A stretch of 64,000 bases of DNA from a virus: positions 1-64,000 of the IMG/VR virus record IMGVR_UViG_3300027749_000098; one strand, 5' to 3'. Shown here piece after piece: positions 784-38,300 of the stretch. Both the position numbers and the translations under genes were made by a program. Positions within the stretch are counted from its first letter, which is position 1. Each line of letters starts with the position of its first letter. The notes under the pieces were generated by a model, which saw only the letters and a program-made list of their open reading frames with translations, was not told the origin of the DNA and searched no databases.

Positions 784-791
784 TATTTATA
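784..791 (-). promoter_or_regulatory. T4-type late promoter box upstream of the tRNA genes
   Basis: The minus strand reads TATAAATA, identical to the T4 late-promoter -10 box recognised by gp55. It lies about 20 nt upstream of tRNA-Thr. The tRNA and dNMP kinase transcript could thus also be made late. Confidence 0.5.
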
Positions 792-4287: not shown

Positions 4288-4885
4288 TTTTACCTCTCTT
4301 TTTCGTAATTATGTGACTCTTTACAAATTTCTTAATTTTTTTATTTAGAGCAGTTTCAGCTCGTTCTAGGACAAATTTAGAAACTTTAGTTTTAAAATCA
4401 ATTCCATTTAATCTATCTATTCCTTGTTGAATAATTCTTGAAGTTAAACCATCGAACCTAGTCATCTTTTCATTTCCTTCGAAATCTTGATATGAAACAA
4501 TAACTGTAGTAGGGCGTTTAACTGCAATTAATAAACCCATATTACTTAAATCAGATTCTTCTAATAAAATTTCGCCATGCGATTCAATAACAATAGGGTT
4601 AAAAAATGCAACAAAATTATCCTCAGCGCCAGCAACTAATACTTTGTGTTCTAATCCGCATTGATTTGCAGCAATTCCATATACTTTATGGAATTTACAT
4701 GTTGCAATTAACTTTGAAGCAATTTCGCTAGAATTTAATTCAGTATTGGTAAAATCGAAGTGTTTTAACTTTGTAGTTAAAACTGGATCTTTTTGATCAC
4801 ATAATTCATAACCAAGAAATTGAGGTTCAGGCACTGCTGCAGCCTGAGAAACTACATCAGCAGTATTATATATAAACTCACTCAT
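4274..4885 (-). CDS. Peptide deformylase-like protein without active-site residues
   Basis: The 203-residue protein has the order of peptide deformylase motifs. Motif 1 is GIAANQ (70-75; normally GLAAPQ). Motif 2 is ESDLS (110-114; normally EGCLS). Motif 3 is QGIDRLNG (154-161; normally HEIDHLNG). The metal ligands Cys, His and His are replaced by Asp112, Gln154 and Arg158, and the catalytic Glu by Gly155. Removal of formyl groups is therefore not expected. A lysine-rich C-terminal tail (about 183-203) is added. The surrounding fold residues (FFNPIVIE, VSYQDFEGN) are well kept, so this looks like a maintained pseudoenzyme, perhaps binding ribosomes or nascent peptides (inference). It overlaps gp46-C by 4 nt. 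Confidence 0.8.
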   Translation of the reverse strand: MSEFIYNTADVVSQAAAVPEPQFLGYELCDQKDPVLTTKLKHFDFTNTELNSSEIASKLIATCKFHKVYGIAANQCGLEHKVLVAGAEDNFVAFFNPIVIESHGEILLEESDLSNMGLLIAVKRPTTVIVSYQDFEGNEKMTRFDGLTSRIIQQGIDRLNGIDFKTKVSKFVLERAETALNKKIKKFVKSHIITKKRGKNGKK

Positions 4886-6855
4886 TGTATAACCTTCATC
4901 TTTGAAAAGTTTTTTATTTTTTCGAACTTTAATACAGTATCGAATTTATCTGATACTTGATCAGACTTATGACTAATAACAAATATATTTGTACTTTTAT
5001 CAACTGATGATAATAAATTCATAAAAACATCAGTACCCCCAGTATCAAGACTGCCGTCCATTATTTCGTCAAGAATTAATAAATTGGTATTTACTGAATT
5101 TTTTAATCTAGCTAGTTGTCTAAATGAAAATAAAATAGCTAAATCTAACCTAGTTTTTTCGCCCTCAGAAAAATTTGCATAAGTAAATTCATCTCTATGA
5201 CGCGATTTAATTACTTCTTCAAAATTTTCATTAATATTAAAATTAACAAAGAAATCTAATTGAGCCAAATACTGATTTATATATTTATTTAAAATAGGAA
5301 GATACTGTTTAATTATACGAGTTTTAATTCCTCCATCTTTTAACATAACAGAAATAAAATCATAATAACTTTTTTCATTTATATATTCTTCATATTTTTC
5401 AACATAAATATCTAATGATTCAATTAATTCTTGCAGTTTATCTGAACCATTATCAGTGGTATTTGATGAATCTTTTAGTTGATCAATTTCATTAGAAACT
5501 AGTTTTATATATTTTTGCGCAGAAACAATATTTGAATTTTTCTCTGATAAAATACTTGAATTCTTTAAAATTTTAGCGTTTATCTTGGATATAGCAACTA
5601 ATCTATCAGTAGCAACCTTTAATTCCTTAGATAATTTTTTTTCGCCATCAACTAATTCTATTAATTTAGTGCTATTTTTTTCAATAATTTCCTGTTTAAA
5701 CACAGAATTAATAGATTGACGGCATGTTGGACAATTATCATTTGAATGATAGAATGTATTATCTTTTTCTACCTTAGATATATTATCGCGCAATTTACCT
5801 TCAATTAATAATAATTTATTTTTCTTTTTTTCAACGACATCCATATCAGAAATTTCATGACCCAGTCGTTCGTTTTCAGACAATAACTCAGAGATAGTTT
5901 GCTGTAAATCTTCAACTTCAACACAAGTATTTGCAATTAATTCTTTTTTTCTAAGAATTAGTTCATCAGAAACTTGATTGGTACGTTTAATATTTTGTTT
6001 TTGAAGTTCTATTTTGTCTTTAAATAATTCAATATTAAATTTACAATCTTGAACAGTTTCTTTAATTCCAGATACTTTATCTTTAACAATAGAGTTCATG
6101 TTAGAAAAAATCTGAATATCAAGCAAATCTTCAATAACAGAGCGTCTATCTCCAGCTGATAACTGCATAAAAGGAGTATATCTAGCTGAGCCAAGAATAA
6201 CAACTTGAGTAAAAGATTTATAACTCATTTTAAGTATATATCTTTCTAATTGTTCTTGATAATCTTTTACTTTTGCGTCTTGGCGAACTAAATCACCATT
6301 ACAATAAACTTCAAAAATATTTGGTTTAATACCACGAATAATTTTATATTTGTTTGGACCAATAGAAAACTCAACTTCAGTAACCAATTCAGATTTATTA
6401 ATTGAATTTATTAAACCGCTTTTGTTAATTTTTCTAAAAGGTTTTCCATAAAGGGCAAAGGTGATTGCATCAATAAACGTTGAATTGTGTGATACCAAAC
6501 CATTAGCATAAAATTCCTTAACATCGGCAACTTGTAAATCAAAAAGATCTTCCTTAGTTTTTAAGTGTTTAATCAATTTAATTTTCACAGGACCGTTTTC
6601 TGTGAATAAAAAATCACCAACAGATAAATTTTTACTAGCAACCCAATTACAATCATTACTTAACATAAGATGATCTGGAGAAACTTTTAGGATTTCTCCA
6701 GATTCAGATTCAAGCTTTATCACATCAGATTTTTTAGCAGTTAAAGCTGCCCCTTCAATACATTTATATCCGAAACGAGTTTTTACAGAAAGCGTTCCTA
6801 TTAGATTTGGATATTTTTTATAAAATTGTACAACATCACCAACTGTAGTTTTCAT
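4882..6855 (-). CDS. gp46: gp46 recombination endonuclease large subunit, C-terminal part, with C-intein at its N-terminus
   Basis: Residues 1-124 are a C-intein: block B-like KVSPDHLML near 57-65, and the C-terminal splice motif FYANGLVSHN followed by Ser125 as the +1 nucleophile. From STFIDAITFALYGKPF onward the protein is T4 gp46 (SbcC/Rad50 ATPase): a zinc-hook CPTC near residue 375 between coiled coils, the ABC signature FSEGEKTR near 563, Walker B LLILDE near 593 and the H-loop ISHKS near 628. With gp47 it forms the nuclease that resects DNA ends for recombination-dependent replication. It lacks the P-loop, which is supplied by the separate N-half (7959-8159). Splicing would give 573 residues (T4: 560). 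The ATG overlaps the endonuclease stop as ATGA. Confidence 0.93.
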   Translation of the reverse strand: MKTTVGDVVQFYKKYPNLIGTLSVKTRFGYKCIEGAALTAKKSDVIKLESESGEILKVSPDHLMLSNDCNWVASKNLSVGDFLFTENGPVKIKLIKHLKTKEDLFDLQVADVKEFYANGLVSHNSTFIDAITFALYGKPFRKINKSGLINSINKSELVTEVEFSIGPNKYKIIRGIKPNIFEVYCNGDLVRQDAKVKDYQEQLERYILKMSYKSFTQVVILGSARYTPFMQLSAGDRRSVIEDLLDIQIFSNMNSIVKDKVSGIKETVQDCKFNIELFKDKIELQKQNIKRTNQVSDELILRKKELIANTCVEVEDLQQTISELLSENERLGHEISDMDVVEKKKNKLLLIEGKLRDNISKVEKDNTFYHSNDNCPTCRQSINSVFKQEIIEKNSTKLIELVDGEKKLSKELKVATDRLVAISKINAKILKNSSILSEKNSNIVSAQKYIKLVSNEIDQLKDSSNTTDNGSDKLQELIESLDIYVEKYEEYINEKSYYDFISVMLKDGGIKTRIIKQYLPILNKYINQYLAQLDFFVNFNINENFEEVIKSRHRDEFTYANFSEGEKTRLDLAILFSFRQLARLKNSVNTNLLILDEIMDGSLDTGGTDVFMNLLSSVDKSTNIFVISHKSDQVSDKFDTVLKFEKIKNFSKMKVIQ

Positions 6856-7907
6856 AATAAATTTTGCGTGTAAGTTTCAATAAATTGTTTATAGTCGTTT
6901 TTATTAGTCAGAATAACTGAACCAAAAGTAGATTCTTTATATTTCATTTTTTGTATATATACATCATCTGTATAGCCAGCTAATTCCACCCAAACATTAG
7001 AATTAATCAAATAAAAATCGCACCGCATTTTAGAGTTTGGATAATATTTTTCTATTATAAAATCTACACCATTTACAAACCCATTTTCAACTAACATATA
7101 GTAAAATAATATTTCATTAGAAGAACGAAGTAATTTATTTTCAACTTTCATCGAATACAAATAATTACCATGTTTACCTTTTAGTAATATTGGAGCATCA
7201 GTAGATTTAAACTCTAAAAACGTTCTTAACCAAGAATCAATATTTTCGGGTTTATCGTTAACCAACTCAAAATAATACGACTTTAAGTATTTCTTCTTAA
7301 AATTAACCATAGACAAATATAAATCAAATTCATCTAAATTTTTCAATATAAAGAGTTTTATATCCTCTAAAGAATAAAAAATTTCGCAATTTCTTGAGAT
7401 TAAATTTTCTACAAATTTTTGTCTACCAAAAATTTCTCCATATTTTTCAATAAATGTAGTTAATTTAAAAGTAGATTTTTTAGAATTTATTAGATTAAGT
7501 TCATCAACAGATTTAGAATTAAGTGTTGAATTCCATTTTTCTTGCCTATCGATCCAAATAGATAAACCTACATCATATCCATATTTCTGTATACATTTTT
7601 CTCTAGAAAAAGTTGATTGAATTTCAGAAACGCGTAAAATCGCTTCCTGAGTCGATAAACCTTTATATTCCCAGTATTCTATACATCTAGGAGAAAGACG
7701 TTTAAAACTTTCTTTAGGCTTGTTTGAATTGGTTTTAGCACCCTTTTTTTGATGTTCCAACCTCATTTCTTCAGCTTTTTCCAAATCCACGTTAAATTTA
7801 TGAATATAATATTCAACGTTAGTTGGCCTGCGAATTTTTATTTGATACTTAGCTTCTTCAATAGAATATCCTTTTTGTATCCAGGTTTCCAATTTAAACG
7901 CAGACAT
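6852..7907 (-). CDS. Free-standing homing endonuclease, PD-(D/E)XK/Vsr-like, inside fractured gp46
   Basis: The 351-residue protein lies between the two intein-bearing halves of gp46. The C-terminal third (about 250-351) has a PD-(D/E)XK/EDxHD-like pattern: NEILFYYML, then MRCDFYLI, then VWVELAG, then YIQKMKYKE and VILTNKN. The N-terminal part has repeated short helical units of the type YWEYKGLSTQEA and CIQKYGYDVG, a typical DNA-recognition arrangement in phage homing enzymes. Vsr-like nucleases in fractured split-intein genes are known from phage metagenomes. It has its own late promoter (7938-7945) and a good ribosome binding site (AGGGGTG). It probably cuts unoccupied gp46 alleles to spread the element; target and activity are inferred. 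Confidence 0.8.
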   Translation of the reverse strand: MSAFKLETWIQKGYSIEEAKYQIKIRRPTNVEYYIHKFNVDLEKAEEMRLEHQKKGAKTNSNKPKESFKRLSPRCIEYWEYKGLSTQEAILRVSEIQSTFSREKCIQKYGYDVGLSIWIDRQEKWNSTLNSKSVDELNLINSKKSTFKLTTFIEKYGEIFGRQKFVENLISRNCEIFYSLEDIKLFILKNLDEFDLYLSMVNFKKKYLKSYYFELVNDKPENIDSWLRTFLEFKSTDAPILLKGKHGNYLYSMKVENKLLRSSNEILFYYMLVENGFVNGVDFIIEKYYPNSKMRCDFYLINSNVWVELAGYTDDVYIQKMKYKESTFGSVILTNKNDYKQFIETYTQNLL

Positions 7908-23598: not shown

Positions 23599-24828
23599 TT
23601 ACCAATAACTTTCAACTGGTTGTACAACTTCCCATAAATCTCCATCTTCTAACGTAAATCTATCCATTAATGGATTACTAAATTGCGGCATAGGTGGAAC
23701 ATCAATATCATCTTCTTTAATATAATTATTTTCTATTTGTAATCTTTTGCGAATATCAGTAGATGATAATTCTATAAATAATTTTTGAGTTGATAACCAA
23801 GCAAAAATAACTAAAGTCATCGCTAAATCATCATTTGCTCCTTCTTCAGCTGCAAATGAATTATTTGTTGCAATAAATCTAGTTAATTCGTATATTGTTT
23901 CGCTGGAATTAATTCGTAATTTATCAGTTTCAATTAAAGTCTTTAAAGTAGTACAACCAACACGTTTTACTAATGGACTCATATTAACGCCATTTTGTGT
24001 GGCTTTACCGTTCTCGCTTATTTGTTGAGCTTTTTTGTTTCCTGCATAAACTTTTAATACATTTTCATATTCTAAATCTTGAAATAAAGTATCAGCTACT
24101 GTTGGATTATTGTTTACTTCAATTAATACATATGCATTGTTATAATATTCTCCAGCCATTTTAATAATATCTGGAAATAACATTGGATGTAATTGATTAT
24201 TTCTATATGTAGCTACTTGTGTGTATGGAATTGTTGATACATCAAAAATAGAAAATGCAGCAAAATCCAAGTTTTTCCCTTCTGAGACGTCAACAGTCAT
24301 TGCATAGATATGATCTTTATCTATTTGTTTTTTAGTTTCATCATCAAATGATTCTTTAACCGGAGGGATAAATACATCCATTTCATTTGGAATTGTTATT
24401 CCAGCAAATATTTCATCATCTGTATCTAATGGATCTACTGCAACAAGAGTTTGTAATTTTGAACCATCGATTAATGTATTTGTAGATCCTAAAAATTCGC
24501 AATTATGCGATAAAATTCCATTAGTATAATAACATTTATCGTTTCCCGCATCTATGACATCAAAAACTTCTTCTAATTCAAAATTTTCAGAAATAAAATC
24601 AATTTTAGAAAATCCATGAATAGTCTCTATAAAATCTAAATCAGATAATTCGCTAATTTCTTTATAACCATCAAGAGTTTTTATTTTATGATCTATAGTA
24701 CAATCAAGAAAACAGTTATTTTGTGTTATAATCTGAACGGTTCGTTTTTTATGTAATTTATTTACACCTCTAAACTTTTCCCATCCATTTATAGTTTTTA
24801 TTTTATATTTTGTATTTTTCCCAAACAT
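23599..24828 (-). CDS. gp17: gp17 large terminase, C-terminal part (nuclease domain) with C-intein at its N-terminus
   Basis: Residues 1-109 are a C-intein: MFGKNTKYKIKTINGWEKF at the start, block-like TIDHKIKTLDGYKEI, and the end CYYTNGILSHN followed by Cys110 as +1 nucleophile. From CEFLGSTNTLI the protein is the terminase linker and RNase H-type nuclease: TVDVSEG (Asp180), LIEVNNN (Glu237) and GANDDLAMTLVIFAW (Asp333/334), matching T4 gp17 LDCSEG, IELNSTG and YHDDLVMS. Trans-splicing with 25447-26355 would give 571 residues (T4: 610). The C-intein resembles that of the atypically split terminase intein AceL-TerL. The ATG lies 26 nt inside the upstream HNH gene. Confidence 0.93.
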   Translation of the reverse strand: MFGKNTKYKIKTINGWEKFRGVNKLHKKRTVQIITQNNCFLDCTIDHKIKTLDGYKEISELSDLDFIETIHGFSKIDFISENFELEEVFDVIDAGNDKCYYTNGILSHNCEFLGSTNTLIDGSKLQTLVAVDPLDTDDEIFAGITIPNEMDVFIPPVKESFDDETKKQIDKDHIYAMTVDVSEGKNLDFAAFSIFDVSTIPYTQVATYRNNQLHPMLFPDIIKMAGEYYNNAYVLIEVNNNPTVADTLFQDLEYENVLKVYAGNKKAQQISENGKATQNGVNMSPLVKRVGCTTLKTLIETDKLRINSSETIYELTRFIATNNSFAAEEGANDDLAMTLVIFAWLSTQKLFIELSSTDIRKRLQIENNYIKEDDIDVPPMPQFSNPLMDRFTLEDGDLWEVVQPVESYW

Positions 24829-25399
24829 GTTTCCAACTTTTTTTGGTTAATAATCGCATTAAAGCTGCTGGAGTTAATTCATAAGTATTTGCATAAAACT
24901 TAGAAAAACTCCATTCATATGAATCAACTCTACCGTTTCTTTGTGTTATTCCTTCTGACTCTAATTTTGGTCTACTAAAATATAATTCTAATATTTCTAT
25001 AACTTGGTTTTCTTTTAATTTTGCTTTAGAATTTAATTCCCCAGTGCTATTTTTAGAACGTTTTATTTTTAAATCTTCGGAAACAAATATTTTTTTACCT
25101 TTATTCCATGGAATAGTTCCTTTTTTTACTCCTCCAATTCCAGGTCTTTTAATTCCTTTTTGTATATTAGAAATTTGTTCTGTTGACATATCCATACGTT
25201 TCATTATCATGGCGCAAGCTCCGAATTCCTCTTGCGCTTGATGAATATTAAAATGCTCGCATATTGATACGCATTTCAAATTGGTAATATCATTATTATT
25301 CCTATTACCGTCTATATGGTGTATTTCATATGTTCTTCCTTCATAATCTTTTGGAATACTACCATAATGCTCTTCCCATATTTTTCTATGTTTTGACAT
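24803..25399 (-). CDS. HNH homing endonuclease inside fractured terminase gene
   Basis: The 198-residue protein has an N-terminal HNH core, RTYEIHHIDGNRNNNDITNL at about 22-41, continuing to a downstream EHFNIH. It is followed by a NUMOD3-like segment (GGVKKGTIPWNKGKKI) and a helical C-terminal part (LTPAALMRLLTKKSWKHVW) likely to bind DNA. It sits between the two intein-bearing terminase halves, so it probably spreads this element by cutting intein-free terminase genes. It has its own late promoter and overlaps the C-half by 26 nt. It belongs to a different nuclease family from the enzyme inside gp46. Confidence 0.9.
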   Translation of the reverse strand: MSKHRKIWEEHYGSIPKDYEGRTYEIHHIDGNRNNNDITNLKCVSICEHFNIHQAQEEFGACAMIMKRMDMSTEQISNIQKGIKRPGIGGVKKGTIPWNKGKKIFVSEDLKIKRSKNSTGELNSKAKLKENQVIEILELYFSRPKLESEGITQRNGRVDSYEWSFSKFYANTYELTPAALMRLLTKKSWKHVWEKYKI

Positions 25400-25425
25400 A
25401 AATATGCTCCTATTATAAATATAAT

Positions 25426-25433
25426 TATTTATA
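25426..25433 (-). promoter_or_regulatory. Late promoter for the HNH gene and gp17-C
   Basis: TATAAATA on the minus strand, 27 nt before the HNH ATG, in the 47-nt gap after the terminase N-half. It occupies the same relative place as the box at 7938 in the gp46 locus. Confidence 0.65.
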
Positions 25434-25446
25434 ATATTATGAATTC

Positions 25447-26355
25447 TTAGGAATTCATAAGCGAATGTAATTTACGCATTGTAATTTTTTGTTCATTACC
25501 AAATTCATCCTGTATTTCAACTATTGTATCCCCAGTAACGCATGCAAATTCTTGGTTAAACTGACGAGCAGAGGTATTTCTAATCGTAGTTTCTTTCCAT
25601 AATTCGTCGCGTCCTGGAACTCTAGACCAATGAATATCAACAGCTTTATAATCGCTCTTTTTACTTACCGCATCCATCCACATTTTATAGTATAAATTCA
25701 TACCACGAGGAGTAGATACAATAATAATTTTTGTTGTTTTACCTGATGAAATTACAGGATATGTTGAAGTAAAGAATTCTTCGGCTAAGTTATTATGAAC
25801 GTGAGCAAATTCGTCCATAAATACAAGGTTAAACGATCCACCACGAACAGAACTAGCAGCAGTAGAAGCCGCTAACATTTTTGATCCATTTTCTAGTTCA
25901 ATACTGCCTTTGTTCCATATAACAATACCTTGTTGTAACCACATAGGTAAATTTTCATAGGCTAATTGATATCGAGATAGAATCTCAACAGCTAACGATT
26001 TTTTATTAGCTGTTATAGCAATATTATAATTTTCAGTAAATAATGATAACCACAAAAGATAACCAACAGATGTTGTGGTTTTACCTGATTGTCGACCAAT
26101 CCTTACAATAGAAAATCTATTTTCGTGAAATGCTTGAACCATTTCTTCTTGATAATCATGCATATCAAAATAGACAAGACCTTCATCAAGATTAATAATT
26201 TTTACATAATTACGAATAAAATATATTGGATCGTTAACGCACTTTCTAAGTTCATCTGCTTGGTGTTGATCATATTCCCAATTTTCAATACCAGCTCTTC
26301 TTAGATTAGGGTTATCTCTATAATATAATTTATTGCTACCCTCAAAATCAATCAT
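25447..26355 (-). CDS. gp17: gp17 large terminase, N-terminal part (ATPase) with short N-intein
   Basis: Residues 1-271 form the packaging ATPase: Walker A GRQSGKTT (87-94), Walker B NLVFMDE (176-182) and coupling motif STPRG (214-218), as in T4 gp17. Residues 272-302, CVTGDTIVEIQDEFG onward, are a 31-residue N-intein starting with Cys272 right after NQEFA. In T4 the same point (QFRQEHTAAFEG) is the ATPase-nuclease junction. The protein stops inside the intein, and its C-intein partner is encoded at 23599-24828. Without splicing, ATPase and nuclease remain separate polypeptides. It follows small terminase gp16 by 3 nt. Confidence 0.93.
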   Translation of the reverse strand: MIDFEGSNKLYYRDNPNLRRAGIENWEYDQHQADELRKCVNDPIYFIRNYVKIINLDEGLVYFDMHDYQEEMVQAFHENRFSIVRIGRQSGKTTTSVGYLLWLSLFTENYNIAITANKKSLAVEILSRYQLAYENLPMWLQQGIVIWNKGSIELENGSKMLAASTAASSVRGGSFNLVFMDEFAHVHNNLAEEFFTSTYPVISSGKTTKIIIVSTPRGMNLYYKMWMDAVSKKSDYKAVDIHWSRVPGRDELWKETTIRNTSARQFNQEFACVTGDTIVEIQDEFGNEQKITMRKLHSLMNS

Positions 26356-28646: not shown

Positions 28647-29393
28647 TTATCCAACTAAAAATTGAACTGGTAATTCGTATCTATCTTGCATTTCAGTTTC
28701 TAGTCTTTGTATATCTGCAAATGCTTCATCATATGTTTCTTTACCATTTAATGTCAATCCACCTGGAAGTTGTATTCCTCCAAATTTTTTCATATTATCT
28801 CCCCATTGACGTTTAAACAGCGCAGTAACATATTCCTTCAACCAGCGGTCATTATATACACTTTCAAAAGTTTCTGGATCGATTGCTTTATAACCTTCGG
28901 CAACTACCATAGAACCAACTGGTATCTGTGATGAACCCCATCCCCAATCTACATATAATCTACCAGTATGACGTTGAAATCTAATTGGAACTTCTCCAGT
29001 AAACATTTCGCTTAAATTTTGAAGATGTTGCATTGTAATAGAGAAATTGGTATAAGATGTTGATGTAAAATCATACAATTCATGTAAACGCAATTGATAT
29101 CTTAAATCAAACATATTATTTTTAGTAATAGTTTCATTTAAAGCAAAGATTTTAGTAATACCTAAAATTCCTGGATCGATATTAAAATATTTTTGATCTA
29201 CATCTTCTTGCGTTATAACATGTTTCCAATAGAAAGATTCAGTTGCATCAAAATGATAATCTTGATAGAATTGAATTGCATCATCAATTCTATCTTCTAA
29301 TTGGTCGTCATCAACATTGATTGTAATGACTGGAGCGCCTAATCTTCTTAATGCATAATCTTTTAATTCGTCTCTTGATGTAACTTGAGCCAT
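28647..29393 (-). CDS. gp13: gp13 neck protein
   Basis: The 248-residue protein has the gp13 family pattern: SRDELKDYALRRLGAPVITINVDDDQLEDRIDDAIQFYQDYH near the start, NIDPGILGITKIFAL, and DRWLKEYVTALFKRQWGDNMKKFGGIQLPGGLTLNG. It binds the portal with gp14 to close the head after packaging. T4 gp13 is somewhat longer (309). It is the first gene of the neck/terminase block and has a late promoter 33 nt upstream. Confidence 0.93.
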   Translation of the reverse strand: MAQVTSRDELKDYALRRLGAPVITINVDDDQLEDRIDDAIQFYQDYHFDATESFYWKHVITQEDVDQKYFNIDPGILGITKIFALNETITKNNMFDLRYQLRLHELYDFTSTSYTNFSITMQHLQNLSEMFTGEVPIRFQRHTGRLYVDWGWGSSQIPVGSMVVAEGYKAIDPETFESVYNDRWLKEYVTALFKRQWGDNMKKFGGIQLPGGLTLNGKETYDEAFADIQRLETEMQDRYELPVQFLVG

Positions 29394-29404
29394 GTTGAAA
29401 TCCC

Positions 29405-29485
29405 TTTAATATAAACTTTATTATCTATTTATAAGAAAGGGATTAGAATTATTTATTGGTGCGTTGAAAAAATATTATTTATTAA
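29405..29485. repeat. Intergenic direct repeat, copy 1 (with late promoter)
   Basis: About 81 bp, nearly identical to 31053-31132 with a few substitutions and a one-base indel. It includes the box TATAAATA (29426-29433, minus strand) upstream of gp13. The two copies flank the FN3 tail gene, which suggests a duplication. Confidence 0.88.
29426..29433 (-). promoter_or_regulatory. Late promoter for gp13 and downstream neck genes
   Basis: TATAAATA on the minus strand, 33 nt before the gp13 ATG, inside repeat copy 1. Confidence 0.65.
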
Positions 29486-29544
29486 TAATATATACAAGTA
29501 AAAGCAGTTTTTAAAATAAAACTGCCTAAATATTGTTCACTCAT
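29482..29544 (-). pseudogene. Remnant 5' end of an MSEQYLG-type tail gene
   Basis: The minus strand from 29544 reads MSEQYLGSFILKTAFTCIYY then TAA. This is a 20-codon copy of the first codons of the adjacent FN3 gene (MSEQYLGGFISKTAPT), diverging and running into repeat copy 1. It begins right after that gene's stop. It is best explained as the truncated start of a duplicated gene. Confidence 0.75.
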
Positions 29545-29546
29545 TA

Positions 29547-31013
29547 TTAAATCGTTAACGCAAATGTAAATGAATGAGAAGTTCCATTTACAACAAAATT
29601 TAAACTCCACGTATATGTTCCAGGGTCATTAATTGTTACGTATGTTGATGGAGTTTGTATTATCGGTAAGAAAGCGAGATAAAACAGTAATTGCCCTGAC
29701 GCATTCGCATACATATATGTTCCATCTGCAGAACCGTTATATGTCGCGCTACTCACACCTGAAAGTATAACACTTGGCGCATTAGATACGGTACTATAGT
29801 CGTCGGCAAACATTCTAAAAGTATGTGTATGAGAAGGAGAAGATGTTACATTTATATATGCTGGAACTTTAGCAAAAGGAGATACTCCGCCGACAACAAT
29901 ATCTACGCTATTATACCAGTTTCCATTTGTAGCCGCTGTACTACTTACACTATAAGTTGCTGATCCATAATTTACAATAGAGAAGCTATTCGGAGTTGTG
30001 TCTGCAGTTGTTGTAGATACAGAATTTGATGTGCTTGATGCTGTACTACTTCCTACACTGTTTGTTGCTTTTACTGTAAATGTATATGCAGTTGAATATA
30101 ATAACCCAGAAACAGTAATAGAACCAGAATCAGCTTGATTTATTGTTCCAGTTAAATTTCCAGGAGAACTAGTTGCGGTATAACTTGTAATTGCAGCACC
30201 TCCATTATTTGCTGGAGCAGTAAATGGCACTGTTGCTGTAAACCCTCCACCATACGCAGTTGCTGTTGAACTAACTGTTACTGTACCGATAGTTGGTGCG
30301 CCTGGAACGGTAATAGCAGTTGCTGTTACAGAATTTGATGCGCTCGATGCTGTACTAGATCCGGCGCTGTTTGTTGCTTTTACTGTAAATGTATATGCCT
30401 GCGATGCAGTTAATCCAGAAACAGTAATAGAACCAGAATCAGCTTGATTTATTGTTCCAGTTAAATTTCCAGGAGAACTAGTTGCGGTATAACTTGTAAT
30501 TGCAGCACCTCCATTTACTGCTGGAGCAGTAAATGGAACTGTTGCTGTAGTATATGATATTGTAGCTGTTCCAATAGTTGGGGCATTGGGTACAGTATAT
30601 GCTGTTACAGAATTTGATGCGCTCGATGCTGCACTACTTCCTACACTATTTGTTGCTTTTACTGTAAATGTATATGCTTGCGATGCAGTTAATCCAGAAA
30701 CAGTAATAGAACCAGAAGAAGCTTGATTTATTGTTCCAGTTAAATTTCCAGGAGAACTAGTTGCGGTATAACTTGTAATTGCAGCACCTCCATTTACTGC
30801 TGGAGCAGTAAATGGAACTGTTGCTGTAGTTCCATTAGAATTTAATGAAACAGTTCCTATAATCGGAGCATTTGGTGCATTTATTGCTACTGGCCAACTC
30901 CCTGCTGTTTTATATTGCGACATTTGCGTCATCGTCCAAATACCCTGTGCCGAATTCGCTTGTACAGTAGGAGCAGTTTTTGAAATAAACCCGCCTAAAT
31001 ATTGTTCACTCAT
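29547..31013 (-). CDS. Tail-tip protein with three fibronectin type III-like repeats
   Basis: The 488-residue protein starts MSEQYLGGFISKTAPTVQ then GIWTMTQM, a short virion-attachment-like motif shared with the gene at 31609. Residues about 48-330 are three near-identical FN3-like domains (PNAPTIGT, ITSYTATSSPGN, SGSITVSGLTASQAYTFTVKATN). The C-terminal 150 residues are a different beta domain (FSIVNYGSATYSVSS onward). FN3 domains are common on phage surfaces and may bind sugars. The gene is flanked by two copies of an 81-bp intergenic repeat and followed by a truncated copy of its own start, so it lies in a rearranging region. Confidence 0.8.
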   Translation of the reverse strand: MSEQYLGGFISKTAPTVQANSAQGIWTMTQMSQYKTAGSWPVAINAPNAPIIGTVSLNSNGTTATVPFTAPAVNGGAAITSYTATSSPGNLTGTINQASSGSITVSGLTASQAYTFTVKATNSVGSSAASSASNSVTAYTVPNAPTIGTATISYTTATVPFTAPAVNGGAAITSYTATSSPGNLTGTINQADSGSITVSGLTASQAYTFTVKATNSAGSSTASSASNSVTATAITVPGAPTIGTVTVSSTATAYGGGFTATVPFTAPANNGGAAITSYTATSSPGNLTGTINQADSGSITVSGLLYSTAYTFTVKATNSVGSSTASSTSNSVSTTTADTTPNSFSIVNYGSATYSVSSTAATNGNWYNSVDIVVGGVSPFAKVPAYINVTSSPSHTHTFRMFADDYSTVSNAPSVILSGVSSATYNGSADGTYMYANASGQLLFYLAFLPIIQTPSTYVTINDPGTYTWSLNFVVNGTSHSFTFALTI

Positions 31014-31052
31014 TATAAAATCTCCTGCAATACTGTAATCATTTGTAACCTC

Positions 31053-31132
31053 TTTAATATAAATTTATTATCTATTTATAAGAAAGGGATTAGAATTATT
31101 TATTGATGCGTTGAAAAAATATTATTTATTAA
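31053..31132. repeat. Intergenic direct repeat, copy 2 (with late promoter)
   Basis: The partner of 29405-29485. The rest of the 176-nt gap (31014-31189) encodes nothing visible. Confidence 0.88.
31073..31080 (-). promoter_or_regulatory. Late promoter for the FN3 tail protein
   Basis: TATAAATA on the minus strand, 60 nt before the ATG at 31013, inside repeat copy 2. Confidence 0.6.
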
Positions 31133-31189
31133 TTGGGTTAATTTTATCCCAATAGCCTAGCTCAAAGATTTTTATAGTAATTAGACCAA

Positions 31190-31594
31190 TTATGTTTGTT
31201 TAATCCAAGATACAGAAGGTTCGTCCCAATAATACAGCCCATCTTGTGGATAAGGTATAGGCGGTTGCCATGACATTGTGTTAATATCACCTATCCATGA
31301 TGGATAAGGTTTTCTAGCCTGATGCTCTGCTTGTTTATCTGCGTTAAATTCAATCTCTGATAATATAGCAACTACTCCTGTTAAACTAGTATCTGCATCA
31401 TCGTTGCATATTCCATAATACAGTGGCATTTCAGCATAAGATCCGTCGGTATTTGTATCTATTGGGTAAATTGATTCATTTGCAAAGACAAATTGAAATC
31501 CCGTTACATCTGGAAGGGTAGGTCCGGTACGCATTGGTGCTTCTGTGCAAAGTATTTTTGTACCTGCGTCAATATTTGTTAATTGTATGTACAT
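31190..31594 (-). CDS. Hypothetical tail-associated protein with PYPSW...WDE motif
   Basis: The 134-residue protein has a C-terminal pattern ARKPYPSWIGDINTMSWQPPIPYP then DGLYYWDEPSVSWI. This Trp/Pro-rich motif recurs in hypothetical proteins beside tail-fibre genes of aquatic T4-like phages. The N-terminal part (TGFQFVFANESIYPIDTNTDGSYAEMPLYYGICNDD) is not recognised. It lies between two tail-tip genes on the same strand and may be a fibre chaperone or accessory protein. The function is not shown. Confidence 0.6.
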   Translation of the reverse strand: MYIQLTNIDAGTKILCTEAPMRTGPTLPDVTGFQFVFANESIYPIDTNTDGSYAEMPLYYGICNDDADTSLTGVVAILSEIEFNADKQAEHQARKPYPSWIGDINTMSWQPPIPYPQDGLYYWDEPSVSWIKQT

Positions 31595-31608: not shown

Positions 31609-32361
31609 TTAAACTGGTATCCTGCGGACGGCTCTGACATATAGGTTGCTGGACTTAGAGAAACCGCCTTGCCCGCCATCGACGAAACCACTTCCCAACG
31701 CGTAACCGCCACTAAATCCATCAAGTTCATTAGACATCCAATAGTATGTGTATGTGTATGTTGCAAATGCTTCCGTTCCACCAGTTTTAAACGCAACAAC
31801 ACTCGTTTGAGCGGGTGCGTTACTGGTATAATTAGTGCTAACAGGCTCTGGAGATACTGCGTTAGGATTTGACCCTGTGGTAGTTATATTTGTATCCGTA
31901 CTCGGTTTTAAGAAATAATACAGCACTTCTAATTCATTTTGAGCTGGTAAATACCAATCTGTGTAGCCGTTTAACCCCCCCCCGCTATTTAAATTATTAC
32001 AAAACGCAGCCGCTTGGTATGACGCGCCTAACGCAGCCAATGTCGCAGTGTTTGTCGGTCCATTAATAGTAGAAAATACTCCAGTTACTGTTGAAGGTCC
32101 CCATGTTCTACTTGAGTTTTCGCCCGATGCTTTAGGAGCAACAATCAAATAATACTGTGTCCCAGATACATTAATTTTACCCCCAATAAAACCACCGCCA
32201 TAGGGTGCGCCAATATTAGGGAAAACAGGACCTATGCTGGGCCACAGCGTTTGACCAACTGCTTGGAGTTGTTGACGCATAGTCCACATGCCCGTTGCGC
32301 TAGAGCCTGACGTTACTAGTGCTGTCGCTGACAGCACGCCGCCTTTATATCGCATTGACAT
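31609..32361 (-). CDS. Lectin-like (DUF1566/Lcl C-terminal domain) tail-tip protein with G9 tract
   Basis: Residues 1-45, MSMRYKGGVLSATALVTS then GMWTMRQQLQAVGQTLWPS, share the 'GG..S...WTM.Q' attachment motif with the FN3 protein. The rest is a DUF1566-type C-lectin-like domain: GYTDWYLPAQNELEVLYYFL, then YYWMSNELDG, then ARAFASGFV-type positions here reading ALGSGFVDGG, ending LYVRAVRRIPV. Such domains bind carbohydrates, so this may be the receptor-binding tip. Codons for SGGGLNG contain a run of nine G (31975-31983 on the complement), a likely slippage site that would frameshift the protein. Confidence 0.8.
   Translation of the reverse strand: MSMRYKGGVLSATALVTSGSSATGMWTMRQQLQAVGQTLWPSIGPVFPNIGAPYGGGFIGGKINVSGTQYYLIVAPKASGENSSRTWGPSTVTGVFSTINGPTNTATLAALGASYQAAAFCNNLNSGGGLNGYTDWYLPAQNELEVLYYFLKPSTDTNITTTGSNPNAVSPEPVSTNYTSNAPAQTSVVAFKTGGTEAFATYTYTYYWMSNELDGFSGGYALGSGFVDGGQGGFSKSSNLYVRAVRRIPV
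31975..31983 (-). repeat. G9 homopolymer inside the lectin-like gene
   Basis: Nine consecutive G on the coding strand encode Gly-Gly-Gly. It is exceptional in this AT-rich genome and sits upstream of the conserved lectin core, so gain or loss of one base would truncate the domain. Confidence 0.8.
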
Positions 32362-32373
32362 AGAAAATTCCTA

Positions 32374-32748
32374 TTAAGAAATTGCTTCGTAGCTTGCAAC
32401 AAGTTCAATTGCATTACTTGTTCCTGATGTTGCAACGACTGATTGCGTTTCAGTAACATAAAAAGCAGTAGTTTTATCAGTAATAATTAATGACGCATTA
32501 GCAGGAACTGAAATTTGATATGCTAATCTATAATTAGTTCCTGTTCCGCCTGTTGCGCTATTAACAGCAAGAGTAATTGAAGTTGGATTTGCTGATACAT
32601 TACAAGCAGTAATATTTCCAACTTTATATACCGTTCCAGAAGCTGGAGTTAATGATGTCCAAGTAGTTGCAGTATTGGCGCTACTACATATTAAATATGT
32701 TGTATTGCCGTATATACTCTGAACAGCTGTTATATTTGGGTTTGCCAT
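32374..32748 (-). CDS. Small beta-rich virion protein
   Basis: The 124-residue protein starts MANPNITAVQSIYGNTTYLICSS and has YKVGNITACNVSANPTSITLAVNSA, then ISVPANASLIITDKTTAFYVTETQSV. This layout (a beta sandwich with LVVITKDTSIYL-like strand) is common among small structural proteins in aquatic myoviruses. It probably decorates the tail or fibre, as it lies between the large fibre and the lectin-like gene. No enzyme motif is visible. An AATAAATA sequence near 32776 is only a partial late-promoter match. Confidence 0.7.
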   Translation of the reverse strand: MANPNITAVQSIYGNTTYLICSSANTATTWTSLTPASGTVYKVGNITACNVSANPTSITLAVNSATGGTGTNYRLAYQISVPANASLIITDKTTAFYVTETQSVVATSGTSNAIELVASYEAIS

Positions 32749-32783: not shown

Positions 32784-35700
32784 TTAGAATCCCATAACCA
32801 TAGCAAGAGCTATAGCTTTACCACCCGTAAAAGTTGGAGCTGGGGCAGCTGATACCCATGTACCATTATTACTTGTTAAAATATTACCAGTGGTTCCAGG
32901 AGCAACTGTCTGAAGCGTAGAAGTTCCATTTCCTAATATAACATTATTTGCAGTTAATGTTGTAGCTCCAGTTCCGCCGTTGCCTACAGGTAAAGTTCCA
33001 GTAACATTTGTTGTTAGCGAACAATATGTAGTTGAGGTTGACCCAGTTCCGCCGTTGCCTACAGGTAAAGTTCCAGTAACATTTGTTGTTAGCGAACAAT
33101 ATGTGGTTGAGGTTGATCCAGTTCCGCCATTGCCTACAGGTAAAGTTCCAGTAACATTTGTTGTTAGCGAACAATATGTGGTTGAGGTTGATCCAGTTCC
33201 GCCATTGCCTACAGGTAAAGTTCCAGTAACGCCAGTGCTTAATGGTAAATTTGTACAATTAGCAAGATGCCCTTGATATGGACTTCCTATATATGCTCCA
33301 ACAAGAGTAGGATTAGTTGCAAATACTAATTTTCCTGTTCCGGTTTCGTCTGAAATTATACCAGCTAAATCGGAACTCGTTGATTGATTAAATTGCGCTA
33401 AAGTTCCAGTTGTTCTTGCAACAGTAGAATCTACAGCTATAGTTGCTGCAGAACCGCCAATATAATTAGTTCCAGTAGACCATAATAATCCAGTTCCATT
33501 TGATAGCGCATTTAAATTATTACCCAATGTAATACCGGAAATGGTATTTGCAGCTAATTTTGTAACTGTAATAGATCCATTTGCTATTGCTTGAGTAGTA
33601 ATAGCGTTGTTTGCTATTGCTTGAGTAGTAATAGCGTTGTTTGCTATTGCTTGAGTAGTAATAGCGTTGTTTGCTATCGTTTGTGCAGTAATAGCATTAT
33701 TTGCAATTAATTGTGTAGTAATAGAATTATTTGCTATTGATGCTGCCCCTATTGCTCCCGCAGACATCATAGAAGAAGTTATAACGCCAGTATCGCCAGT
33801 AGAAATTAATGCTCCAGTATTAGCAGAAAAAGTTAGCGTTCCCCCAGCAATTGCGCTTGGTTTAATAGTAGTTGTTCCGCTAGTTGAACCATTTAATAAA
33901 ATGGTTTTTCCAGTTGCTAACGCAAGGTTTTCTGAACTAGTCCACGCACCAGTAATATTATACCAAGTAAAAGTTTTATCTGTAGAGCCTTTTATGGTAA
34001 TACCACCACCTGAGGCTGTGTTATCAGTTGCACCACCTACAGAGCCGAAAAACGCTCCAACTAATGCATTATTAATATCAGCTGTAATTTGCGTTGGAGA
34101 ATCAACAGATAAAATAACTGCACTAGGTCCTGGAGATCCAGTTCCGCTAAGTTTACTGATAAGCATTCCAGGAATCATGCCGCTGCTAGATGAAACGGTT
34201 AAGACTCCACTCGAAGTAGAAATTGCTGTCATTTGCGTATTTGCAATTGCTACAACACTACCAAGAGTAAAATTTTTGTCATCAACATTTACTTCATTAG
34301 AATTAATAGTTGTCGTTGTTCCATTAACGATTAAGTTAGAAGAAACAATTAAATCTCCAGATAGAGATAAACTAGTTCCTGTTGCAGCACCGATATTTGG
34401 AGTAATTAATAGAGGAGAATTTGCAAAGACTAGAGAACCAGTTCCAGTTTCATCGCTAATAACTCCGGCAAGTTGCGAACTAGTTGTTGATGCAAAATAT
34501 CCAAGATTACTAGTATTTCTTGCAACAGTAGAATCTACAGCTATAGTTGCAGCAGAACCACCGGTATAATTAGTTCCAGTAGACCATATTAACCCAGCTC
34601 CATTTGATAGAGCATTTAAATTACTACCAAGATAAACGCCTGATATAGTATTTGCAGCCAATTTATTCGTTGCAATAGAAGCAGTATCGCTAATATGAAT
34701 GTTGGAAATTGTAGTATTGGCAATCATATTTGCTGATACTGTTCCAACACTTCCAGTCACAACAGCTGTTCCTGATTGGTTAGGAAATACAATTATATTA
34801 GTTCCGCCTGTTTCAGTTACTTGTAATGTTACACCATTTGCGCTGTTTATATTATTAGCTAATCCTAAATTAACAATACCTCTAATTGTAGTATTAGAAG
34901 AACCTAATGCAATATTAGTTGTTCCAATTGTTACTGAAGTATTTGCTAATTTAGCGTTACTAATAGAGCCAGCCAACATAGCATTAGTAACAGTACCTGT
35001 ATCACCAGTAGATATTAACGCTCCAGTATTAGCAGAAAGAGTTAAGGTTCCGCTAGCATTAGAACTGGCTTGTAATATTGTATTTCCACTTGTCGACCCA
35101 AGATAACTAATACTTGATACATTTGCAAGAGTAGTGTATACTGAACCTAAACTTAAAATTGACGAACCAATCGTTACTGTATTATTAGATAATTTATCAC
35201 TGGTAATAGAGCCAGCCAATTTAGAATTACTAATAGAGCCAGCCAACATAGCATTAGTAACAGTACCTGTATCACCAGTAGATATTAACGCTCCAGTATT
35301 AGCAGAAAGAGTTAAAGTTCCACCAGCAATTGCACTAGGTTGAACAGTAGTTGTTCCTGATGCAGAACCATTTAATAGAATAGTTTTTCCAGTTGCTAAT
35401 GCTAGATTTTCTGAACTAGTCCAAGCACCAGTTGCATTATACCAGTTAAAAGTTTTATCCCCTGTTCCTGTAGTGCTTTTTACAGTAATACCACCACCAT
35501 TAGCTGTAAAGTCAGTTGCAGCACCAACAGAACCAGTAAACTGCCCAGCACCAAGGTTATTTACACTAAGTGTCAATTGAGTTGGTGAATCAATTGACAA
35601 AATAATTGCTCCTACTCCTGGAGTTCCTGTTCCAGTTGATTTAGAAACAGACATACCTGGAATCATACTTGTAGTTGTTGTACCAGATACAGTTACTACT

Positions 35701-38300
35701 GAATTTGAAGTTCCTAATGCATTAAATGAGATTGTTCCTAATACTGGAACATTGCCTAATGTTATATTTTTATCATCAATAGATAAAGTATTTGTATTAA
35801 AGGTTGTAGTTGATCCATTTACAACTAAATTTCCTGCAACTGTTACATCACTACCAAATGAAGTTGCATTGGAGAATTTAGTATTAATATATGAATATAA
35901 GAATGTATTTGCGCCATCTAATTCATTTTGTGTTGTTATTTTATTAAATATTGATGGATTATCTACATCTCTTAGTTGCCATTGTTTTCCTGAATTATAC
36001 CATCTTAATATTGCGTTAGCTGCTCCGCCGCCATTAGATCTATTTACAATAATATCTGTATTTGGTGAAGATGGGCTGCCTGTGCTATATAAGAAAATAT
36101 ATTCATTAGAGTCTGATATTGTGGAACCGTAGTTGGTAAATTTACCAAGAACATCTAAATTTTGTACGATAACCGTATTTGATGTTATTAATGGAATAAA
36201 CGCAACAGTATTAGAATTTCCTGCAAATTTAACGAAAGTAGAATTAACGTATGTACGAGTATTTGCATCTAATGCTATAATACTTTGATTCGTATTGGCT
36301 AAATCAGTATAAATTGCTGTATTAGCGGTATCTAAATCTTTTTGTGATATTATTGAATAAGTAAGTCCGTCATAATTTTTAATTTTTGCATTTGTGGTAT
36401 TAAATAATATACTAGAATTTACTCTTAATCCATCAGTAAATACATTAGAACTAGAAATTGTTTGATCAGATTTTATTGATCCATTAGCATTAATTCCCGA
36501 AGAATTGATGAAATTTACAGTATTACTAAATTGAATGTTTCCAGAAACAGCAGTTACTCCAGAAAGAGTTGTATTGCTGCTTGATAATGCTAATGCAGAA
36601 ACGATATTATTATTAAATGTAGTTACACCAGAAACAACAGTTGTACCAGAAACAGCAGTATTTCCAGAAATGGTTGTAGTTCCAGAAAGATTTGTATTTC
36701 CGCTAGAATTTAAATTTACTGTTGATGATACGTTATTGCTAAACGCAGTTACGCCAGTTACAGTAGTTGTACCAGAAAGATTCGTATTTCCACTAGAATT
36801 TAGATTTACTGTTGATGATACATTATTATTAAATGTAGTTGTTCCGGAAACAGTAGTCGCACCAGAAACAGTAGTTGTACCAGAAAGATTTGTATTTCCG
36901 CTAGAATTTAAATTTACTGTTGACGATACATTATTGTTAAACGCAGTTAAACCTGATACAGTAGTATTTCCAGTTACAGTGGTTGTACCAGAAACAGCAG
37001 TATTTCCAGAAATGGTTGTAGTTCCAGAAAGATTTGTATTTCCACTAGAATTTAAATTTACTGTTGATGATATGTTATTGTTAAACGCAGTTACGCCAGT
37101 TACAGTAGTCGCACCTGAAACGCTTGTATTTCCAGAAATAGTAGTCGCACCAGAAATAGTAGTTGTTCCGGTTACAGTGGTTGTACCAGAAAGATTCGTA
37201 TTTCCACTAGAATTTAGATTTACTGTTGATGATATGTTATTGTTAAACGCAGTTACGCCAGTTACAGTTGTATTCCCAGAAACAGTGGTTGTACCAGAAA
37301 GATTTGTATTTCCACTAGAGTTTAAATTTGCTGTTGACGATACATTATTATTAAACGCAGTTAAACCTAATACAGTTGTATTTCCAGAAACGGTTGTATT
37401 TCCGCTTATAGAATTATTTCCGGAAATATTTGTAATTCCAGATAAACTAGTTTTTCCAATAGAGGAAGTATTTCCGGTAAATAATGTATCTCCAGAAACG
37501 GTTGTATTTCCGCTTATAGAATTATTTCCAGAAATATTTGTAATTCCAGAAATAACCATGTTTCCAGATAAACTAGTTTTTCCTATAGAAGAAGTATTTC
37601 CAGTAAATAATGTATCCCCTAAAACAGTTGTATTTCCTGTAGATTTTATAATACCAGATAATTCAGTTCTATTTGTAGAGTATAAATTACCATTAACTGT
37701 TGCGTTACCATTAATTAATGTTTGTCCAGTAATGTAATTAGTACCAGAAATAGTAGTTTCGCCCGCAAGAGTAGTATTACCGGAAAAAACTGATTTACCA
37801 GTTTCAAATAAATCGCCAGTAAATATAACAGGACCATTTACAACTTCAACTTTACCTGTAAATGAAGTATTACCGATTACTGTTGTATTTCCGGTAATAG
37901 AAACATTACTACGCAAATCCGTAGAATTTAATACTGTAAGTTTGGTATTTACTGTCGCAAGAGAAGTAAATAAATTAGCAGAAGAAATAGTTGTATTACA
38001 TCTGATTGCTCCTGCAGTCAAAATACTTGTATTTCCTGCATTTACTACCATTGTATTATACAAATACGATGGGCTGCGAACCTCAAAAAACGTTCCGGTT
38101 GGACCAGATATTGATACATTTCCACCAAATACCGCAGAATTACTTACATATAAGCCGGTATTTGGAGAATTTAAATATATCGTCCCGCTATTTTTATAGA
38201 AATCTTCATAAAGAAGATTATTTATGCTACTCGCCATTTGATTTGTTGTTATCATCCAATGGGAGAATGTATTTGAATATGTAATCTGAGATATCGCCAC
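32784..38300 (-). CDS. Large repeat-rich tail fibre protein
   Basis: The 1838-residue fibre has four zones. Residues about 1-100 look like an attachment head. About 100-590 is a dense repeat of short units (SGNTTVSG, NLNSSGNTNLSGTTT) expected to form a trimeric beta-helical shaft. Two copies of a 160-residue domain (VDDKN-TLG, then MIPGM-SK, then TFNWYN-TGAWTSSENLALATGK) lie near 840-1000 and 1330-1490. The end holds six AIANNAITTQ-type repeats (about 1518-1577) and four VGNGGTGSTSTTYCSLTTN repeats (about 1690-1780) before a short tip. It has a late promoter and is probably the main host-binding fibre. The complementary strand is open over long stretches because of codon bias only. Confidence 0.88.
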   Translation of the reverse strand: MAISQITYSNTFSHWMITTNQMASSINNLLYEDFYKNSGTIYLNSPNTGLYVSNSAVFGGNVSISGPTGTFFEVRSPSYLYNTMVVNAGNTSILTAGAIRCNTTISSANLFTSLATVNTKLTVLNSTDLRSNVSITGNTTVIGNTSFTGKVEVVNGPVIFTGDLFETGKSVFSGNTTLAGETTISGTNYITGQTLINGNATVNGNLYSTNRTELSGIIKSTGNTTVLGDTLFTGNTSSIGKTSLSGNMVISGITNISGNNSISGNTTVSGDTLFTGNTSSIGKTSLSGITNISGNNSISGNTTVSGNTTVLGLTAFNNNVSSTANLNSSGNTNLSGTTTVSGNTTVTGVTAFNNNISSTVNLNSSGNTNLSGTTTVTGTTTISGATTISGNTSVSGATTVTGVTAFNNNISSTVNLNSSGNTNLSGTTTISGNTAVSGTTTVTGNTTVSGLTAFNNNVSSTVNLNSSGNTNLSGTTTVSGATTVSGTTTFNNNVSSTVNLNSSGNTNLSGTTTVTGVTAFSNNVSSTVNLNSSGNTNLSGTTTISGNTAVSGTTVVSGVTTFNNNIVSALALSSSNTTLSGVTAVSGNIQFSNTVNFINSSGINANGSIKSDQTISSSNVFTDGLRVNSSILFNTTNAKIKNYDGLTYSIISQKDLDTANTAIYTDLANTNQSIIALDANTRTYVNSTFVKFAGNSNTVAFIPLITSNTVIVQNLDVLGKFTNYGSTISDSNEYIFLYSTGSPSSPNTDIIVNRSNGGGAANAILRWYNSGKQWQLRDVDNPSIFNKITTQNELDGANTFLYSYINTKFSNATSFGSDVTVAGNLVVNGSTTTFNTNTLSIDDKNITLGNVPVLGTISFNALGTSNSVVTVSGTTTTSMIPGMSVSKSTGTGTPGVGAIILSIDSPTQLTLSVNNLGAGQFTGSVGAATDFTANGGGITVKSTTGTGDKTFNWYNATGAWTSSENLALATGKTILLNGSASGTTTVQPSAIAGGTLTLSANTGALISTGDTGTVTNAMLAGSISNSKLAGSITSDKLSNNTVTIGSSILSLGSVYTTLANVSSISYLGSTSGNTILQASSNASGTLTLSANTGALISTGDTGTVTNAMLAGSISNAKLANTSVTIGTTNIALGSSNTTIRGIVNLGLANNINSANGVTLQVTETGGTNIIVFPNQSGTAVVTGSVGTVSANMIANTTISNIHISDTASIATNKLAANTISGVYLGSNLNALSNGAGLIWSTGTNYTGGSAATIAVDSTVARNTSNLGYFASTTSSQLAGVISDETGTGSLVFANSPLLITPNIGAATGTSLSLSGDLIVSSNLIVNGTTTTINSNEVNVDDKNFTLGSVVAIANTQMTAISTSSGVLTVSSSSGMIPGMLISKLSGTGSPGPSAVILSVDSPTQITADINNALVGAFFGSVGGATDNTASGGGITIKGSTDKTFTWYNITGAWTSSENLALATGKTILLNGSTSGTTTIKPSAIAGGTLTFSANTGALISTGDTGVITSSMMSAGAIGAASIANNSITTQLIANNAITAQTIANNAITTQAIANNAITTQAIANNAITTQAIANGSITVTKLAANTISGITLGNNLNALSNGTGLLWSTGTNYIGGSAATIAVDSTVARTTGTLAQFNQSTSSDLAGIISDETGTGKLVFATNPTLVGAYIGSPYQGHLANCTNLPLSTGVTGTLPVGNGGTGSTSTTYCSLTTNVTGTLPVGNGGTGSTSTTYCSLTTNVTGTLPVGNGGTGSTSTTYCSLTTNVTGTLPVGNGGTGATTLTANNVILGNGTSTLQTVAPGTTGNILTSNNGTWVSAAPAPTFTGGKAIALAMVMGF
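32971..33238. repeat. 75-bp tandem repeat in the fibre gene, about 3.5 copies
   Basis: Units start at 32971, 33046, 33121 and 33196 and encode 25-residue VGNGGTGSTSTTYCSLTTN repeats near the C-terminus. Copies are nearly identical, so copy number may vary. Confidence 0.92.
33581..33740. repeat. 30-bp tandem repeat in the fibre gene
   Basis: Three exact 30-bp units (33581-33670) plus degenerate copies, encoding AIANNAITTQ decapeptides. Confidence 0.92.

Follow-up and report, generated by a model that had tools for sequence, protein, structure and literature searches.

The DNA analysed here (the window, 64,000 nucleotides) is part of a 71,420-base virus record, and on the minus strand it can be read as the late region of a T4-like phage that has not been cultured. 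The genes on this strand run from a DUF4815 protein through a 495-aa protein, a 77-aa protein, a long fibre-type protein, a three-gene cassette and a gene with FN3 domains to gp13, after which a gp14-like head closure protein is encoded. The main genes are as follows.

Upstream end of the late gene order, minus strand: DUF4815 protein of 2529 aa, assigned by domain match, with a presumed baseplate role.
32784-38300, minus strand: long fibre-type protein of 1838 aa with a conserved start, at the edge of a variable stretch.
32374-32748, minus strand: cassette gene 1, 124 aa, 71% identical to a gene in locus L125.
31609-32361, minus strand: cassette gene 2, a 250-aa adhesin-type protein with a similar N-terminal anchor and an Lcl_C domain (PF07603), found by domain search.
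31190-31594, minus strand: cassette gene 3, the 134-aa MYIQLTNIDA (MYIQ) gene, phrog_7759, with 51 loci.
29547-31013, minus strand: FN3 tail-type protein of 488 aa, composed of an N-terminal anchor, three fn3 domains (Pfam fn3, E 1.5e-23, three stretches) and a C-terminal part.
28647-29393, minus strand: gp13-like neck protein (head-tail adaptor Ad2; phrog_211, E 8.4e-40; 79 related loci), native owner of the promoter block described below.

A tblastn search with gp13 gave matches in 2329 named phage records, every one below 60% identity. The FN3 protein (tblastn) and the region as a whole (megablast) had no match among the named records, from which records very near the window may be absent.

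The three FN3 repeats, each of 231 nt, occupy 30012-30830 and are 88-96% identical. Both other contigs of this phage stop inside 30012-30830, and the number of repeats may vary. Single-sequence structure prediction of the C-terminal part gave an unusable model (mean pLDDT 32). The N-terminal anchor occurs on other protein bodies, namely an RCC1 protein in L091 (52%) and an Lcl-type protein in L125 (55%), and also in L112 (57%); the anchor search, with a query of 51 aa, returned two loci.

The FN3 gene lies between two copies of one intergenic block, designated A and B, and each copy is adjoined by the remnant of a gene.

31122-31175, minus strand: vestige of a 124-aa gene, reading IKIFELGY joined to WDKINPINK and a stop (IKIFELGYWDKINPINK), compared with 15 intact copies, 52 sequences scanned.
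31040-31133, minus strand: copy B of the block, upstream of the FN3 gene (local alignment, blastn, repeat search).
31073-31080, minus strand: TATAAATA, late-promoter-like site of copy B (motif scan).
31047-31091, minus strand: weakened inverted repeat of copy B (dG -8.2; 66 of 1000 shuffles as stable).
31013-31042, minus strand: nine-codon ORF MITVLQEIL, read from the start-codon position of copy B and overlapping the FN3 start (TAATG).
29482-29544, minus strand: 20-codon vestige MSEQYLGSFILKTAFTCIYY followed by a stop, a decayed FN3 gene start (54 of 61 columns identical).
29391-29486, minus strand: copy A of the block, ending with the gp13 start codon (local alignment, blastn, repeat search).
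29426-29433, minus strand: TATAAATA, late-promoter-like site of gp13 (motif scan; same position in relatives).
29399-29444, minus strand: inverted repeat with TATAAATA in its 5' arm and the gp13 Shine-Dalgarno (AAAGGG) in its 3' arm (dG -14.4; 2 of 1000 shuffles as stable).

An earlier note on this DNA had described near-identical repeats at 29405-29485 and 31053-31132; these are real and extend slightly further. Local alignment of A with B covers 96 columns, 90 of them identical, with four mismatches and two single-base gaps; blastn returned 92 columns at 94.6% and a repeat search 73 nt at 97%. With up to three mismatches permitted, a 25-nt piece of the block was found at exactly two places in the window, against a mean of 0.00 in 100 shuffled sequences. 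Both copies end with a start codon, and copy B begins inside the last codons of a vestigial gene.

The 20-codon remnant of the MSEQYLG start, which the same note had placed between the FN3 stop and the first repeat, was confirmed. Alignment with the start of the FN3 gene spans 61 columns, and a repeat search reported 57 nt at 89%. At the doubled start the FN3 gene has MSEQYLGGFISKTAPT and the vestige MSEQYLGSFILKTAFT; over the first 16 codons there are five base differences in three codons, all three of which change the amino acid. Because L091 carries GGFISKTAPTV like the FN3 gene, we regard the vestige as the decayed copy.

The other vestige, absent from the earlier note, lies between the MYIQ gene and copy B and is an internally deleted remnant of a 124-aa gene. 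Both ends are kept and the middle is gone, with the join at GGnTATT, a motif common to both ends in L102. Copy B opens with the last four codons of this remnant (ATTAATAAATAA). Intact versions of this gene begin MKTFELGYFG or MKTAELGYFG, end GYWDKVNKINK or similar, and follow the MYIQ gene in many phages. The intact end was present in all 15 of the MYIQ loci compared, out of 51, and in 31 of the 52 sequences scanned; among the matches listed there are also loci with another gene next after MYIQ (e.g., L094, L096, L100, L105 and L136).

The cassette aligns with L125 over 1,624 columns at 67.8% identity. L125 belongs to a 53-kb record that carries an adaptor of the SU10 type (PF24175) and lacks a gp13 match, and among the 12 MYIQ-bearing records tested (of 51), which may be fragments, a gp13 match was found in one (L099) and in none of the other 11. 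Because of these two observations, the three-gene cassette probably crosses phage groups. A DGR target, a possibility prompted by the Lcl_C domain, was considered and rejected: a search for reverse transcriptase (PF00078) was negative in the phage's own record (0 of 1), which may be a fragment, and positive in 3 of 14 controls.

Comparison with relatives indicates to which gene the block belongs. Scanning IMG/VR with a 22-base core of the block returned nine contigs: seven are gp13 loci of this clade (L004, L005, L007 and L014-L017), one is a twin of the copy B side and one (L146) is unrelated. At the four core columns that differ between A and B, four aligned relatives agree with A in 4, 4, 3 and 2 of the four and with B in one. 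Since the core is found at gp13 loci and the relatives mostly agree with A, the block belongs to gp13 as its promoter region, instead of being a general spacer in an array of tail genes, and copy B is the changed copy. We also considered the core as a widespread mobile element and rejected this, eight of the nine contigs being from this clade and the ninth an unrelated stretch.

Across the window and 41 of the 79 gp13 loci, TATAAATA stands 34-42 nt before gp13 in 14 of 42 sequences. It is absent where the fibre gene runs directly into gp13 (L013, L018 and L039) and present where genes intervene (the window, L007, L008, L014 and L016). There are exceptions to this link: L026-L031 carry small genes ahead of gp13 but lack the promoter there. 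The motif shows no enrichment across the window (17 sites against 20.8 expected), yet 10 of the 15 on the minus strand precede an ORF start by 27-60 nt, so that the earlier description of a late promoter in both repeats is a fair reading by position and by the T4 consensus.

We analysed the inverted repeat in eight distinct promoter sequences, leaving out the gp13 promoter of L037, and judged each predicted fold against 1000 shuffles. A hairpin forms in six of the eight, and in four of these at most 10 shuffles were as stable: copy A, L015 (-15.6; 0 shuffles), L016 (-12.4; 4) and L014 (-11.8; 10). The hairpins of L005 (-8.0; 54) and copy B are marginal, and none was found at the gp13 promoters of L006 (-5.0; 419) and L010 (-5.3; 405), two of the seven distinct gp13 promoters. 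Elsewhere in the window, eight other TATAAATA sites just before ORFs gave a lowest z of -1.85 (28 of 500 shuffles). The hairpin may not be unique to gp13, because TATAAATA at 784-791 (minus strand), upstream of a putative tRNA-like stretch, also lies in a fold of -9.8 (within 768-818). At 25399-25440 (minus strand) the TATAAATA of an endonuclease-like ORF also lies within an inverted repeat, beside AGGAG, with a fold that is not significant (66 of 500 shuffles).

Covariation was assessed in six of the eight promoter sequences, with L006 and L010 excluded. In these, 89.6% of cells pair and three pairs are changed on both sides, C-G to U-A twice and U-A to A-U once. Controls with a slid partner reached at most 54.7% pairing and at most one double change. 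Among 500 shuffles, 16 reached the observed paired share, 15 the double changes, 8 the score and 90 the further pair types.

The arrangement of signals within the hairpin is shared as well. TATAAATA lies inside the 5' arm in A, B, L005, L014, L015 and L016; L006 and L010, lacking the hairpin, do not share this placement. The 3' arm holds a Shine-Dalgarno, AAAGGG in A, L005 and L014, AAAAGGA in L016 and ATAGGA in L015, 6-10 nt before the gp13 start codon. Fold prediction suggests that an RNA with an assumed start 4 nt past TATAAATA would miss the 5' arm and leave the hairpin unfolded. In copy B the ribosome site of the FN3 gene lies beyond the hairpin, behind the nine-codon ORF, so that the 3' arm does not hold it. 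The 3' arm of copy B is altered and its fold weaker, as if the hairpin were no longer needed.

The endonuclease-like ORF mentioned above belongs to a stretch (23599-26355, minus strand) in which the terminase large subunit is apparently split, and which we take to be possibly a fractured gene with a split intein and an endonuclease. Here, 25447-26355 presumably ends in an intein-N-like stretch, 24803-25399 reads as HNH endonuclease-like, and 23599-24828 would begin with an intein-C-like end (NGILSHNC) and continue as terminase. We presume a possible second fractured gene at 4882-7907 (minus strand), where a gp46-like ORF (4882-6855) starts with what we take to be an intein-C-like end (NGLVSHN) and is preceded by an ORF, presumably endonuclease-like, at 6852-7907.

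The genes found between the fibre gene and gp13 differ among relatives whose gp13 is 89-95% identical. Within nine sequences including the window, differing cargo was identified in L007, L008, L014, L016 and L027 and none in L013, L018 and L039; L007 carries three 2OG oxygenases, and L014 a sulfotransferase, a methyltransferase, a kinase-type protein and an RCC1 protein. In L013 (5289-9917) the fibre gene abutting gp13 ends in a Peptidase_S74 chaperone domain. The fibre gene of the window ends in GGKAIALAMVMGF before the cassette. Similar scars occur in two further loci, there lacking the late-promoter block. L104 (3935-3994) has a stop-bearing vestigial 3' end of the 124-aa MKTFELG gene between two FN3-type genes (60 nt, 88% to the intact end), and in L101 (2880-5288) an adhesin-type gene is flanked by two MYIQLTNIDA genes that are 94% identical over 300 nt.

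The duplication itself was surveyed in the window and the same 41 gp13 loci, with 71 to 10,607 bases of upstream DNA. A second copy of the block was found in the window only (1 of 42 sequences, many with little upstream DNA; L004, from the same phage, breaks off within the FN3 gene). Short repeats in L032 (24-43 nt) and in L024 and L025 (30 nt at 86.7%) do not represent a second promoter block, and the self-matches of L015-L017 are inverted. Relatives with other cargo between the same two repeats were accordingly not seen, and a scan for variants that had lost or gained one copy, using an exact 33-base pattern, matched the two twin contigs only. Because the duplication is seen in this phage only and no single-copy variant was found, the evidence comes from a single event. 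The earlier proposal of an array of tail-tip genes swapped by recombination thus stands in part: the variable cluster, the anchor on other bodies, the vestigial ends in the window and L104 and the doubling in L101 agree with it, whereas swapping as such was not seen. For want of other cargo between the repeats and of variants in copy number, swapping is a likely history and not a demonstrated process.

Taken together, the best reading is that the FN3 gene was gained by recombination at the late control block of gp13, to which we assign a probability of about 0.6. We infer recombination as the cause and the order of events as follows. The block would control gp13 late in infection, through a T4-type late promoter within an inverted repeat. 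Read-through RNA from genes upstream would fold so that the ribosome site of gp13 is hidden, and RNA started at the promoter would lack the 5' arm. A tail gene made of the anchor and FN3 domains would then have entered between the adhesin-type cassette and gp13 through recombination at the block, leaving copy B before the new gene and copy A before gp13. In this way the FN3 gene would have become a late unit of its own, and the promoter of gp13 would not have been taken. The MSEQYLG scrap may be the start of a second gene of the anchor family, lost through a deletion up to copy A, and the MKTFELG scrap a cassette gene deleted across the short shared GGnTATT. Running in reverse, recombination between the two direct repeats could also remove the gene cleanly. 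The left edge of copy B continues from the MKTFELG remnant and the right edge of copy A meets gp13 as in relatives; the simplest ancestor is therefore a single block between the cassette and gp13, two copies of which would later have enclosed the FN3 gene and the MSEQYLG scrap. On the left flank this argument rests on 12 AT-rich bases.

The main rival is a tandem duplication of the promoter and gene start, by slippage or unequal crossing-over, followed by decay and involving no exchange between phages. The block and the MSEQYLG start would have been doubled together and most of one unit lost. That the block and the gene start are doubled in the same order is what such an event would leave, and neighbouring genes are doubled in the arrays of L101 and L104. 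We nevertheless consider it rather unlikely: the block core is otherwise linked to gp13 and not to MSEQYLG genes, and among the 79 gp13 loci, many of which reach little upstream, the SEQYLG start is found only in L004, from this same phage, so the FN3 gene probably came from outside.

A different concern is that the FN3 repeats led an assembler to fuse two strains, such that A and B would not flank one real gene. IMG/VR contigs match each flank: L004 covers copy A, the vestige and the 3' part of the FN3 gene, and L084/L092 copy B and its 5' part. Because both twin contigs stop inside the 231-nt repeats, the window alone spans the whole unit, and the link between the two sides is seen there only. 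Each side, however, is 100% identical to the window in a separate data set (1,158 and 692 bases were compared), the two share an overlap of 122 bases within the FN3 gene, and the FN3 copies differ by 4-12%, which would aid discrimination by the assembler; an assembly error is thus very improbable. For the hairpin alone, and compatibly with gain of the FN3 gene at the block, the inverted repeat may act in DNA, as a recombination-prone palindrome or a protein site. Pair changes on both sides are expected of a DNA palindrome too, and hiding the ribosome site of gp13, a late gene in a late operon, from read-through has no obvious benefit. Against this, the 3' arm holds the Shine-Dalgarno and the promoter's own RNA would lack the 5' arm, as described for T4 gene e and I-TevI in PMC3014915 and PMC2988022. 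We regard action in DNA as possible, though the less likely alternative for the hairpin.

The locus resembles several known systems. PeSLs (promoter early stem-loops), reportedly described in T4-type phages by Arbiol in 2010 and Comeau in 2014, are said to combine a promoter and a stem-loop, to occur between genes in multiple copies and to have been proposed to promote gene shuffling. PeSLs of T4-type phages are cited in PMC4503421 and PMC3950731. The block likewise pairs a promoter with a stem-loop (here dG -14.4), lies between genes and is present more than once; unlike PeSLs it has a late-type promoter, TATAAATA, which the stem-loop encloses, it is present in only two copies and its cargo is a structural gene. 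As the promoter is of the late and not the early type, we do not consider the block a member of the PeSLs. With regard to exchange of the PeSL kind, two block copies are present in one genome, and no exchange at the block was seen between relatives.

Late-promoter hairpins that hide a ribosome site are described for gene e, I-TevI and segB of T4 and mobE of Aeh1 (PMC3014915, PMC2988022). The likeness lies in a promoter placed so that late RNA misses the 5' part while the 3' part holds the ribosome site. Those hairpins, however, silence genes on early transcripts, whereas here the gene codes for a neck protein and belongs to a late operon, and a second gene has acquired a duplicate of the region. 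The position matches the host recognition cluster of pelagimyophages, a hypervariable island between the VrlC gene and the neck gene gp14 that holds tail fibres and varied cargo (PMC7029224). Both are structural regions of hypervariable content between fibre or baseplate genes and a neck gene; the distance from the fibre gene to gp13 is ~9 kb here, compared with a mean of 44.6 kb there, and a late-promoter search is described in that paper as having failed in those phages, whereas TATAAATA is recognisable here. The cargo in relatives of our phage includes 2OG oxygenases, a sulfotransferase and RCC1 proteins. By analogy, then, the case is like PeSLs in its layout, like T4 late hairpins in its design and like the pelagimyophage cluster in its place. 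Within the literature searched, no published title on a duplicated late-promoter hairpin at gp13 was found.

Turnover of tail adhesins sets the host range of phages, and its intermediates are rarely caught. Here a single locus retains a duplicated control region together with scraps of two lost genes, and the late promoter inside an inverted repeat, conserved before gp13 in relatives, offers a testable handle. We raise, as a speculative proposal, that the promoter-hairpin of gp13 might be a late counterpart of PeSLs, a portable block of homology at which adhesin genes dock before the neck gene, with newcomers gaining a late promoter and gp13 insulated from read-through. If true, this would carry the PeSL concept beyond early genes to late structural ones.
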